Source of the DNA: Spirochaetes bacterium GWE1_32_154
Lineage (GTDB): Bacteria; Spirochaetota; GWE2-31-10
NCBI GenBank assembly: GCA_001829315.1
Contig: MIAY01000033.1
Coordinates: 1-64,000 of the forward strand
DNA length: 64,000 bases
Direction of reading: 5' to 3'
The notes beneath the pieces are model-generated. The model ran no database searches and was not told where the DNA came from. It saw only the letters and a list, made by a program, of their open reading frames with translations. A program made the translations under genes and the position numbers. Below are positions 3,201 to 59,347 of the stretch, piece by piece. The stretch's first letter is position 1. The number at the start of each line of letters is the position of its first letter.

Positions 3201-3925
3201 TCATTAAATGCCGACTCGCCACCTGCAGTTAGTGCCCAGCCTTTAAAAGTATAACCGGCTCTTGTGAATGTACAACCAGACAATGTTACGGTCACGCCTT
3301 CTGCGCCACCCACTGCAGTCATAGTTCCTGTAGCCTCTGCATGGTTCTTATCAAAAGTAATATTCTTCGGTGTCCCGGCAACCCATTTTACATAGATTGT
3401 TGTATCAGCCGTAACCGTATCAGTTGTAAAATTCCAGAGTGTTTTGAAACCGGCATCCTTGTACCAGCCTGAAAATGCAAAACCCGTTTTTGCAGGAGGT
3501 AATGGTATATTGGCCAAACCACCATTTTCAATCGTCTGATTATCTATTGAGCTACCGTTATCAGTCCAAAATGTAACGGTGAATACCACAATAGAATTAA
3601 CCCATTTCGCATAGACCGTAATATCCGCATCAACTGCTGTTGTTGCAGTAAACTCTGTTCCTGCACCATTTACTTCAGTAAACCAGCCTGCGAAAGTATT
3701 ACCCGCTTTCACTGGTGTTGTTGGAAGTGTTACCACCGTCAATGCAGGCCGTTTAACCATTTTAACACCAGGATTCGCAGCCATTTCAGCACCCTGACTG
3801 TCAAAAGTTACCGCGTATGTTGGAAGAGTACCTCCATTATTCAACCCTGATTCGTCCAATAAATTACATGATACCGTTACGGTCATTATTGCGGCAATCA
3901 AAAAATTAAGAAACATTTTTTTCAT
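227..3925 (-). CDS. surface lipoprotein: seven InlB B-like repeats plus two formylglycine-enzyme-like domains
   Basis: 1232 aa. The N-terminus (MKKMFLNFL...TVTVSCN) is a lipoprotein signal peptide with the lipid-modified Cys near residue 20. Residues about 37-590 hold seven tandem modules of about 75 aa, each with a central GW (FAGWF, FSGWY, FKGWA) and ending in YAKW or a close variant: the Listeria-Bacteroides/InlB B repeat. Residues about 595-830 and 935-1232 are two FGE-sulfatase (SUMF1-like) domains, each with IPGGT, KYEITYELW or RYEITYELW, WRDAIVWCNAYS, GYRLP and GFRV. A fibronectin-III-like stretch (about 840-925) separates them. The first FGE domain keeps RGGS and nearby Cys residues; the second has lost RGGS, so it is probably non-catalytic. 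An adhesin or substrate-binding surface role is inferred, not shown. The SD is AAGGGGAAAG, just before ATG. A terminator follows the gene. Confidence 0.85.
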   Translation of the reverse strand: MKKMFLNFLIAAIMTVTVSCNLLDESGLNNGGTLPTYAVTFDSQGAEMAANPGVKMVKRPALTVVTLPTTPVKAGNTFAGWFTEVNGAGTEFTATTAVDADITVYAKWVNSIVVFTVTFWTDNGSSIDNQTIENGGLANIPLPPAKTGFAFSGWYKDAGFKTLWNFTTDTVTADTTIYVKWVAGTPKNITFDKNHAEATGTMTAVGGAEGVTVTLSGCTFTRAGYTFKGWALTAGGESAFNDKASLVIGATDMILYALWVDSSIQYVINFNKNDVDATGSMAGITGVNGVPVLLPACGFIKTGMVFKGWATSADGAAEYADKASVTINGANITLYAKWGIYIPTYRVIYNGNGDGVTGVPADNTLYTNSMNVVVLDKDVMARTGYSFNGWNSKTDGTGTARAVDSNFMMGNADVVLYAQWSATSYMITYHLDGGTNHGDNPTSFTAATVLTLQSPSKEYHDFTGWYEDIAYSIPVTGIAKATTGNKNFYAKWTVKSFTVSFNKNHADATGLMTALTVNYGAKVTLPACTMSRTDYVFTGWATSTAGAVVYADGTELTMGNANVVLHAVWEIPINAVAKSEMVAIPGGTFIQGEGTNSYFQHTISDFSLGKYEITYELWYTVYHWAIDNGYYFQNPGREGNDGMIGAVPTAAKYEPVTTVSWRDAIVWCNAYSEMTALTPVYSYNSEIIRDSRIENETACDSAVCDWSKDGGYRLPSEGEWEYAARNKGATPYYYASGASDYIHNLVATKDVAWFGDNSNGVTHLVGTKNPNELSIYDMSGNVYEMCYDRTWNYPNGIFIDYEGNIINNPIIRGGSYSMGCDLIDVCCRNDTFFSIISNDLGFRVARSGTRTPKEVTSLAITSSGNTITATWTEPSDADFTGVEIISGYEGLTKTTILEPKGVTSINFTKGMGERFEVTVKTMYTGDRKSSGLFIKHTIPVESVVQAIPYRDMAAIPGGTYQQYNGSSAFQHTITGFQMGRYEITYELWYTVKTWAVSNGYAFANAGKEGDDGVAGAVPTAAKLEPVTGINWRDAIVWCNAYSQMTGGLLGPVDSVYYTDAEFTTPLKVSTNTASINSTAGSEDNPYVKWDANGYRLPTEGEWFFAASERGATPYNYASGATAPTTDVAATGEVAWYSGNSTGHTQTIGQKRANRLGLFDMSGNITEFRWDWSGTWPTANQTDYKGPVSGTMRIAADYDNFYGSLNNQSLGWGAWSYNPYTLFNCVGFRVVRR

Positions 3926-3972
3926 TTTCTTTCCCCTTACAAGTTTTAATCGAAAAGTATGACTTTAGACTT

Positions 3973-4021
3973 TAGAATGTAGAATGTAGAATGTAGAATG
4001 TAGAATGTAGAATGTAGAATC
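3973..4021. repeat. heptanucleotide tandem repeat (TAGAATG)x7 upstream of the lipoprotein gene
   Basis: Six perfect TAGAATG units and a seventh ending in C run from 3973 to 4021. They are preceded by two TTTAGACT-like steps. The array lies 48-96 bp upstream of the start codon of the minus-strand lipoprotein gene, inside the otherwise gene-free stretch 3926-4223. A 7-bp unit changes promoter spacing rather than reading frame when copy number slips. No clear -35/-10 pair could be fixed on either side. Confidence 0.9.
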
Positions 4022-23644: not shown

Positions 23645-23669
23645 TTGCAATTTATTTTTTTAATATCAG

Positions 23670-23741
23670 AGCTTCTTGCAAAAATACTCTTTTTATCTCG
23701 AATTTTTGCAAGAAGCTACCTCTAACGCAATTATATTGCGT
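23670..23741. repeat. dispersed palindromic repeat, composite copy A
   Basis: The 48-bp palindrome 23670-23717 has arms AGCTTCTTGCAAAAAT and ATTTTTGCAAGAAGCT around CTCTTTTTATCTCGA-like DNA. It is followed by the linker ACCTC and a second perfect hairpin ACGCAAT-TAT-ATTGCGT (23725-23741). The same palindrome-linker-hairpin order occurs inverted at 40084-40157. It lies in the carB-gltD convergent gap. Confidence 0.88.
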
Positions 23742-23834
23742 ATTGCCGTAAGCATAAAAAAAGTACACTTTTTTTCATCAAGTACTGTTGATTTTTAAGA
23801 GGCTCATTATTTTTGATAATAACTAATAAAAATC

Positions 23835-33991: not shown

Positions 33992-34033
33992 ACGGAAGTT
34001 CTTGCAAAAGAGTATTTTTGCAAGAACTTCCGT
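33992..34033. terminator. bidirectional terminator built from a palindromic repeat copy
   Basis: A perfect 18-bp stem ACGGAAGTTCTTGCAAAA / TTTTGCAAGAACTTCCGT with a 6-nt loop GAGTAT. It sits between the 52-aa gene and the convergent outer-membrane-like gene. The inner arms CTTGCAAAA match the dispersed repeat family seen at 23670 and elsewhere. It has no long T run, but the stem is strong in both directions. Confidence 0.7.
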
Positions 34034-43280: not shown

Positions 43281-44474
43281 ATGAAAATTAAGTTAATAAT
43301 AATATCGTTATTTGTTTTTATTTTATTGCTCTCTTGTACAATTGAAGATGATGAAAAAAATGAAAAAAAAGCACGAGTTGGTGATACCATTAAAATGTTA
43401 ATGGATATTAATCCTGGACCTTCAAGTTCTCATGTCGAATATTTTATTGTTTTTAATGAAAAACTTTTTTTTAAAGCAGATGATGGAATTAATGGTAGCG
43501 AATTATGGTGTTATGATGGCATCAATGAACCTTTTATGGTATACGATATTAATTCTAGTGGAAGTTCAAGCCCAAGAAATTTGACTGTATATGATGGAAA
43601 ATTATATTTTAAAGCAAGTGATGGTACTGGAATCCCCAAATTATGGGAATATGATGGTGTTAATTCTCCAAAAAGTATATACACAACAATTGTTGAGCAG
43701 CCTGAGAATTTTATTGTTTTTGATAATAAATTTTATTTTGTTGGAACAGATATGTCTAATGATACAGAGTTATGGGTATATGATGGAGTGAAAAAACCTT
43801 CTGTAGTTTATAATATTCATCCGACTTATGACTCTTCTCCTAATTATCTTACAATTTACAAAGAAAAACTTTACTTTAGAGCAGATGATGGAGTTAACGG
43901 ATATATGATGTGGGTTTATGATGGTGTTAATGACCCAAGCTTAGCTTTTGATCCTCTTGAAAAAAAGATTTCTTCTCCTTATAATCTTTTTATCTATAAT
44001 GAAAAGTTGCTTTTTACAGCTTCAGATGAGACAGATTTTGGATTTTGGCAATATGATGGAGTTAATTCTCCAGTTCCATCCTATAATCATAGTCAAGCAC
44101 ATCTTGGGAAAATTGAGTATATTGTTGAATTAAATAATAAATTGTATTTTAAAGGTGATGATGGAACTGGAGAAGAGTTATGGATGTTTGATGGAGTTAA
44201 TCAACCTTCTTTAGTGTATGATATTTATCCTGGGGGTCAATCTGCACCTCAATTTCTTTGTGTATTCAATGATAAAATATACTTTATGGGTGATGATGGT
44301 GTTCATGATGCTGAAGTCTGGGTTTATGATGGAGTTAATAATCCATTTCTTGCTTTTGATGTTGAGCCATTAACTGATTCTTTTCCAAAATATTTTTTTG
44401 TTTTTAAAGATAAATTATATTTGAGTGCTTATACACTTGAATATGGCTATGAAATTATGGTGATTGAGCCATGA
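43281..44474 (+). CDS. lipoprotein with ELWxYDG-type repeats
   Basis: 397 aa. The signal peptide ends in the lipobox LLSC (Cys near residue 19). The rest is seven or eight repeats of about 46 aa built on ELWxYDGxNxP and KLYFxADDG, the ELWxxDGT repeat type, probably a beta-propeller. Such proteins are surface-exposed; ligands are unknown. GGGAG lies 6 nt before ATG. DNA here is AT-rich and lacks the frequent CCGG-type words of neighbouring housekeeping genes, suggesting acquisition. A 4-nt overlap with the next open frame suggests an operon. Confidence 0.8.
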   Translation: MKIKLIIISLFVFILLLSCTIEDDEKNEKKARVGDTIKMLMDINPGPSSSHVEYFIVFNEKLFFKADDGINGSELWCYDGINEPFMVYDINSSGSSSPRNLTVYDGKLYFKASDGTGIPKLWEYDGVNSPKSIYTTIVEQPENFIVFDNKFYFVGTDMSNDTELWVYDGVKKPSVVYNIHPTYDSSPNYLTIYKEKLYFRADDGVNGYMMWVYDGVNDPSLAFDPLEKKISSPYNLFIYNEKLLFTASDETDFGFWQYDGVNSPVPSYNHSQAHLGKIEYIVELNNKLYFKGDDGTGEELWMFDGVNQPSLVYDIYPGGQSAPQFLCVFNDKIYFMGDDGVHDAEVWVYDGVNNPFLAFDVEPLTDSFPKYFFVFKDKLYLSAYTLEYGYEIMVIEP

Positions 44475-54474: not shown

Positions 54475-54578
54475 ACAAAAACATCCTCCGTAGAATAAAT
54501 AAATTAACTACTTATCCACTCTATTTATTAATATTCGATAAAGGAATTGTTAAATCATTATTAATAAATGCATTAAAA

Positions 54579-54629
54579 GGCTCTTGCAAAAATCCGAGAT
54601 AAAAAAAAAGTATTTTTACAAGAAGCTCT
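54579..54629. repeat. palindromic repeat, degenerate copy C
   Basis: GGCTCTTGCAAAAAT, then CCGAGATAAAAA and AGTATTTTTACAAGAAGC. It is in the same orientation as the copy at 40110 but has a longer A run and one arm mismatch. It lies between alkaline phosphatase and the esterase (divergent genes). Confidence 0.8.
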
Positions 54630-58015: not shown

Positions 58016-58147
58016 TTACAGTATTTCACCACCAGCCCCGTTTGCAAAAGCAATATCACTTTTACAGAAAGTATCAGACTCGGGCAAAACAAGTTTAAAC
58101 TCAATAAATCTGTTTTCCCCGTGCTTTATTTTTTCTTCTATCGTCAT
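58016..58147 (-). pseudogene. AlbA/Schlafen-type gene cut by the IS66 end
   Basis: 43 codons: MTIEEKIKHGENRF, IEFKLVLPE and DIAFANGAGGEIL, the N-terminus of AlbA_2/Schlafen-type ATP-dependent regulators (family: E-FK...AFANT-GG-I-IG). GAGGAAAG lies just before ATG. The frame ends in TAA formed by the first bases of the IS66 terminus (58016-58019). The family is normally 200-500 aa and the rest is lost. Confidence 0.7.
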
Positions 58148-58173
58148 AACTTTCCTCAAAAATATTTTATTTA

Positions 58174-58368
58174 CTAAAGAAGTTCTTCCAGCAATATTTC
58201 ATTGTATGCTGAAGCTCTTGCAAAAGTTTGAGATAAAAAGAGTTCTTTTGCAGGAGGGGCATTCACTTTTTTTAATGCAACATCATATAATTTACTGGAA
58301 ATTCTTATTTTATTTTCGATAAGTAAATCAATTTCCGAATTATCGGAAACACGTATTTTATAATTCAT
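58174..58368 (-). CDS. small hypothetical protein carrying an in-frame palindromic repeat
   Basis: 64 aa. The N-terminal part, MNYKIRVSDNSEIDLL to KLYDVALKKV, looks like a normal small protein. Residues about 37-53 (PPAKELFLSQTFARAS) are encoded by a copy of the dispersed palindromic repeat, after which AYNEILLEELL finishes the frame. The start overlaps by 11 nt the end of an older gene remnant (58358-58486). The AlbA-type gene starts 26 nt downstream, so the three were one operon. The function is unknown. Confidence 0.5.
   Translation of the reverse strand: MNYKIRVSDNSEIDLLIENKIRISSKLYDVALKKVNAPPAKELFLSQTFARASAYNEILLEELL
58211..58258. repeat. palindromic repeat copy D, inside a reading frame
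   Basis: It matches the common core with about four changes over 37 bp. It is read in frame by the gene at 58174-58368. Confidence 0.82.
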
Positions 58369-58486
58369 ACGAAGTTATTCGTTTTTTTACATCTGACCAG
58401 TCCGAATACCGGCTCAGTCCATTTTTATACAACTTGTATCTTGCAAAAATACTCCTTTTATCTAGAGTTTTTGCAAGAGCCTCATC
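58358..58486 (-). pseudogene. 3' remnant of a small gene fused to a palindromic repeat
   Basis: An open frame of 42 codons follows an in-frame TAA. The first 16 codons (EALAKTLDKRSIFAR) come from repeat copy E; the rest (YKLYKNGLSRYSDWSD, VKKRITSYEL) look like a genuine C-terminus. Its stop overlaps the next ATG by 11 nt. A similar tail, GWSDVEKKRITS, occurs at 59285-59325. Confidence 0.5.
58438..58481. repeat. palindromic repeat copy E
   Basis: TCTTGCAAAAATACTCC, TTTTATCTAGAG and TTTTTGCAAGAGCC. It lies within the remnant frame and is open in that frame. Confidence 0.82.
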
Positions 58487-59237: not shown

Positions 59238-59286
59238 GAGCCTCTTGCAAAAATACTTTTTTTATTTCGAATTTTTGCAAGAGGCT
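59238..59286. repeat. palindromic repeat copy F
   Basis: GAGCCTCTTGCAAAAATAC, TTTTTTTATTTCGA and ATTTTTGCAAGAGGCTA. It directly abuts a gene tail (GWSDVEKKRITS) on its right and lies upstream of the lipoprotein gene. Confidence 0.87.
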
Positions 59287-59347
59287 ATGACGTTATTCGT
59301 TTTTTTTCTACATCTGACCAACCCTGTTCACCTTTGCTCGATAAAAT

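Follow-up and report, generated by a model that had tools for sequence, protein, structure and literature searches.

The 64-aa reading frame and its palindromes

The window analysed here is a stretch of 64,000 nucleotides from Spirochaetes bacterium GWE1_32_154 (contig MIAY01000033.1, positions 1 to 64,000). One part of it holds a 64-aa open reading frame, two copies of a palindromic repeat that are referred to as D and E, and the remains of two protein-coding genes:

58016..58159, minus strand: truncated Schlafen AlbA_2 relic downstream of the 64-aa frame, matching positions 1-36 of 118 in profile PF04326, below the cut-off
58174..58368, minus strand: 64-aa open reading frame, a DUF3368 relic with a palindrome-encoded run-on tail
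58211..58260 (core 58216-58255), minus strand: copy D, a degenerate short form of 50 nt, with no 4-bp duplication (GAAT / AGCA)
58261..58335, minus strand: DUF3368 C-terminal segment, about residues 12-36 of the frame, matching positions 23-46 of 46 in profile PF11848, below the curated cut-off
58434..58483 (core 58439-58478), plus strand: copy E, a 50-nt unit whose 5' outer end is eroded (TTGTA, not GAGCC), with no duplication

The preliminary description of this DNA proposed that copy D encodes about residues 37-53 of the 64-aa protein, and it likened the arrangement to the Rickettsia palindromic elements (RPEs), which insert into genes without destroying them. The coordinates and the translation confirm that copy D encodes residues 37-53 and that its frame is open. 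The protein itself is a relic. In place of a full-length DUF3368 domain it contains the end part of the profile alone, below the cut-off, corresponding to about the last 25 residues of a DUF3368 gene, and its codon-usage score is 13 before copy D and -2 after it, so that the half containing D is negative. The single full DUF3368 gene in the genome, on contig C8, encodes 157 aa ending in ...IIELAGE* and lies beside a UPF0175-like gene (named by eye). A second DUF3368 relic, at locus L002 on contig C1, is 96% identical over 55 nt and ends in ...KKVNEL*. The stop position of both relatives is the position at which copy D starts, so D sits where a gene, now without its first ~120 codons, would naturally end; the last 28 residues of the 64-aa frame consist of palindrome and unrelated sequence. 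Because D has no target duplication, its right flank has probably been rearranged, and the case for an insertion at this site comes from membership in the repeat family described below. The end of the C8 paralogue at the start of D, together with the missing duplication, argues that all the palindrome encodes is a run-on tail. Copy D is such a tail on a dead gene fragment and not an insertion within a protein, and the proposed likeness to an RPE insertion does not hold for this reading frame.

Two further proposals held in part. Copy E, said to be open in frame with a gene remnant, is indeed open in three frames, but no gene remnant could be recognised there, and the surrounding stop-to-stop stretches (42-58 aa) are not called as gene. 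The consensus, said to be free of stops in the frame used by D, is so in its short form, whereas most long copies carry stops in that frame.

The L002 relic has an unusual structure of its own. At L002:1339-1563 (G000:C1:427184-427408), what looks by eye like the start of a UPF0175-like antitoxin runs in frame into the final ~20 residues of a DUF3368 protein. This is the second relic of that toxin-antitoxin type.

Anatomy of the element

The element ends in the terminal inverted repeats GAGCYTCTTGCAAAAAT. Its short form consists of 50 nt, GAGCCTCTTGCAAAAATACTCTTTTTATCTCGAATTTTTGCAAGAGGCTC. The long forms begin with this same 50-nt hairpin and continue with a second hairpin, either AATGCGATTATATCGCAT or AACGCAATTATATTGCGT, and a third, ATCAAGTACTCTTGAT and variants, before the closing end ATTTTTGCAAGAGCCTC. 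Long forms of 118-120 nt account for 57 copies (36 of them exactly 119 nt), with extra modules in forms of 138-139 and 156-212 nt. Nearly all resolved copies thus fall between 50 and 212 nt, too short for a transposase gene. An exact 4-bp target duplication flanks 90 of 152 copies (73/100 long and 17/52 short), compared to 0-3 when the borders are shifted. The three hairpins covary: changes occur on both sides in 102 cells, where shuffled data average 39 and reach at most 52. The first hairpin also covaries when analysed separately.

The combination of hairpin forms, shared ends and 4-bp duplications is the anatomy of a MITE. The family is short, multicopy and non-autonomous, has terminal repeats and target duplications, and occupies mostly intergenic AT-rich sites. 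Among the longer copies, six (L051, L066, L068, L079, L081 and L129) contain additional nested modules, TGCATGCCCGAGCAG..CGACCAGG and GTACAGTTTTCGGTACCCCGAAACACTGC; these suggest that hairpin modules have been gained by, or exchanged between, copies.

Copy number, distribution and placement

A covariance model search found at least 150 copies of the family in the genome. The 40-nt core, allowing up to 3 mismatches, has 110 matches there against 0 for a reversed control pattern, vastly more than chance would give, and a pattern of the two arms of the element has 143. The two-arm pattern matches this genome alone among 198 of the phylum, the 197 others being without the element, and a search of 40 relatives turned up a single weak, palindromic place in one genome of the same family. 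The exact core pattern is absent from 84,980 species genomes (the own genome left out) and has no match in viral contigs. Rfam offers no convincing RNA family for the element, its best match scoring 17.3 bits against a gathering score of 210. Besides D and E, the window contains these members:

23669..23805, plus strand: long-form copy of 137 nt
34000..34025, strand not assigned: shortened relative with two terminal-repeat arms and a very short loop
40109..40158, minus strand: 50-nt unit copy, found by the core pattern and by the covariance model
54577..54628, minus strand: diverged unit copy
59238..59287, plus strand: 50-nt unit copy, 3' of copy E

Outside the palindrome, a stretch of about 30 nt, GTTATTCGTTTTTTT..ACATCTGACCA, occurs in near-identical form at 58370-58400, upstream of copy E, and at 59288-59320, directly after the copy at 59238-59287. 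The window also holds repeats of other kinds: a DNA repeat at 43440-44446 with seven units and a period of ~135-138 nt, probably within the gene for a repeat-domain protein, and a short tandem GAATGTA repeat at 3961-4016, with 14-nt spacing and at least 3 units.

Placement was analysed in 110 stretches (~0.65 Mb) around the best copies, in which 156 copies were tabulated and genes were called with a hexamer model trained on the same stretches. Intergenic copies make up 135 of the 156 (87%), though 87% of the sampled DNA is coding. They tend to follow genes: 62 of 132 neighbouring gene 3' ends have a copy no more than 20 nt away, compared to 13 of 162 5' ends. The target sites are AT-rich, with duplications such as TATA, AATA and TAAA.

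A probable IS1182-type parent

Two left ends of an IS1182-type insertion sequence survive in the genome, both of them broken:

L281 (G000:C40), from 1091 onward: left end preceding a DUF772 transposase relic
L127 (G000:C31), 3714-3870: that left end again, with the opening codons of that protein

The relic on C40 is preceded by GAGCCTCTTGCAAAAATAGTTTTTGCAATG..., which includes a 17-nt terminal repeat identical to that of the MITEs; the DUF772 relics of this genome begin with GAGCCTCTTGCAAAAAT / GAGACTCTTGCAAAAAT. The C40 left end was apparently cut by an IS21-like transposase gene (IS21 assigned by eye), and the one on C31 by another palindromic element. The DUF772 relic is closest to IS1182 transposases, with a weak NCBIfam match of 17.7 bits and 44-45% identity to IS1182 elements on plasmids. 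Among such elements, a copy of ISUnCu17 on an Aeromonas plasmid has the ends GAGCCTCTTGCAAAA / GAGCTTCTTGCAAAA and a 4-bp duplication, ATGA, and an IS1182 element of Comamonas has GAGGCTCTTGC at both ends with TGGT on each side. Terminal repeat and duplication length therefore agree independently with those of the MITEs. Judging from these sequences, the parent of the family is probably an IS1182-type (ISUnCu17-like) insertion sequence, and a transposase of that type very probably mobilised the MITEs in trans.

Three transposase families were searched for genome-wide: DDE_Tnp_1, DUF772 and IS1380 (PF13701). No intact autonomous insertion sequence was found, both IS1182-type relics being broken. 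A DDE_Tnp_1 transposase on C36 was rejected as parent, since its flanks lack the terminal repeat, and IS1380 had no match in the genome.

Copies inside genes

Three complete genes contain a copy that is read in frame:

L095, C14:131445: ferric-reductase-like FAD/NAD oxidoreductase, duplication AAAA
L144, C36:124649: hybrid histidine kinase with the insert between two receiver domains, duplication TCTA
L155, C43:45499: PAS histidine kinase with the insert in the ATPase domain, duplication AGAT

All three inserts, each within a multi-domain protein, are 119-nt forms with perfect 4-bp duplications, adding 123 nt or 41 codons with the frame kept open, and homologues free of the insert align on both sides (C8:102193-103788 for L144, C1:120250-121386 for L155 and G001:C724 for L095). 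The proposal that the repeat inserts into genes without destroying them thus holds at these loci, but not at the reading frame for which it was made. We infer that the three inserts are translated as fusions in otherwise complete genes. The motifs of the L095 and L144 proteins appear intact by eye. In the L155 kinase (L155:1511-2797), the ATP-binding motif reads NNGNE, against DNGPG in the paralogue at C1:120250; with this degenerate motif, the kinase may be inactive. The three coding copies use three different frames, and hence there is no conserved peptide.

Rebuilding empty sites by joining the flanks in a script gave eight clear intragenic insertions. Three are those just described, and the other five break the gene (names by eye):

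L080: DUF4143-like protein
L085: small CopG-like protein
L098: methyltransferase
L102: AraC-type regulator
L125: GNAT protein

For random intragenic insertion of these copies the expected open fraction is 0.21, so that three or more open insertions among eight would arise with P=0.23; the test put forward in the preliminary description thus shows no excess of in-frame copies over chance. In the short consensus, stops are missing from 5 of 6 frames, a value of at least 5 being reached by 1.9% of palindrome-keeping shuffles (P ~0.02), and this may be chance for one sequence. Complete genes with an in-frame copy amount to 3 of 156 copies (~2%), a count that covers the best-scoring ~156, beyond which more diverged coding copies may exist.

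Comparison with known systems

BOX elements of Streptococcus pneumoniae are modular arrays of stem-loop units, and the present family resembles them, by description, in its modular stem-loops, while sequence, ends and host differ. It also comes close to IS1182 elements of the ISUnCu17 group and to MITEs derived from them, which share the terminal repeat GAGCYTCTTGCAAAA, the 4-bp target duplication and, through the DUF772 relic with the same end, a transposase type; unlike IS1182 elements, the family is non-autonomous, is 50-212 nt long and has internal hairpin modules unrelated to a transposase gene. Single-strand (Y1) transposition of the REP/RAYT kind leaves no target duplication and does not fit the 4-bp duplications seen here.

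In-frame fusions of MITEs are not unusual, and RPEs are the extreme case: nearly half of them sit in open reading frames, each encoding a conserved peptide (PMC10969869). Like RPEs, the present repeats are short and palindromic, and some are read in frame inside unrelated proteins. Unlike RPEs as published, only ~2% are in frame in genes (the large in-frame share is replaced by 3/156), 87% are intergenic, and different frames are used rather than one preferred frame with a conserved peptide. ERIC and RU repeats of enterobacteria are MITE-like repeats of ~100-170 bp that lie mainly between genes, some of their open frames being joined to genes (PMC2759123); judged by description, size class and behaviour are similar, the present family being set apart by its 4-bp duplications and IS1182-type ends. 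QMITE1 and QMITE2 of Coxiella burnetii are also sometimes in frame in reading frames, and QMITE2 provides a C-terminal extension in enhC (PMC5896051), much as copy D does here, but the QMITEs differ in size, ends and direct-repeat length (7-11 nt for QMITE2). In its behaviour the palindrome family is an ordinary MITE that now and then forms RPE-like fusions; it is not an RPE. Its kind, with in-frame MITE fusions, is known already, and the family itself is a further, lineage-specific member.

Origin of the family and of copy D

In all likelihood, D and E are both old members of a MITE family confined to this lineage, which has the ends GAGCYTCTTGCAAAAAT and 4-bp target duplications and was very probably mobilised in trans by an IS1182-type (ISUnCu17-like) transposase. 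The copies insert mainly into AT-rich intergenic sites, often just past stop codons. Copy D would have come to rest where a decayed DUF3368 gene naturally ended and would later have lost its right flank by rearrangement, a decay history that we infer from its surroundings; its open frame would then give a meaningless C-terminal extension. Many copies are open in several frames, and the commonest forms add 54 or 123 nt, so that some intragenic insertions, though a minority, can be expected to remain in frame.

Placement past gene 3' ends, together with the covarying hairpins, could instead mean that the palindromes serve as transcription terminators, or as hairpins at mRNA 3' ends, and are kept for that role, with mobility secondary. 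This is unlikely: the exact target duplications show that the copies have transposed, the interior of the stem is rich in A/T, no copy in the scanned stretch was called terminator-like, and selection against gene damage also yields placement past stop codons. It is also quite unlikely that the family is a gene-tolerant MITE, in which the sequence was kept nearly stop-free and the dominant lengths of 50 and 119 nt (plus 4 bp) were kept at multiples of three so that intragenic insertions are often survivable, with compensatory changes preserving the hairpins for some function in DNA or RNA.

It is very unlikely that selection or tuning for in-frame reading in genes has made the repeat an RPE-like element, with the 64-aa protein as an example. 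Three clean in-frame insertions, a short consensus open in five of six frames and commonest lengths that become multiples of 3 with the duplication (54 and 123 nt) would fit such an element. The intergenic position of 135 of 156 copies in DNA that is 87% coding does not, nor does the breakage of five of eight genes entered with no excess of open insertions (P=0.23); three loci in three frames leave no conserved peptide, and the 64-aa frame is a relic. Copies D and E could also bound a composite element of ~276 nt with the DUF3368 fragment as cargo, as they lie in inverted orientation on either side of the relic and their 64-nt arms are 75% complementary. However, no matching 4-bp sequences lie outside the pair, and the genome contains no second such pair; the composite was rejected on these grounds as highly improbable.

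Were the gene-tolerant reading true, RPE-like behaviour would have arisen independently outside Rickettsia, with an IS1182 element as its source. On the preferred reading, the ordinary MITE, the family provides an outside case for a question raised by RPEs, namely whether an element must be specialised in order to be read as protein. In this genome, three in-frame fusions with insert-free homologues have come from an ordinary MITE, one whose ends and duplications can be identified and whose parent is probably an IS1182 element, and the counts permit a chance expectation to be calculated. So far, chance and selection are enough to explain the in-frame reading of mobile palindromes.
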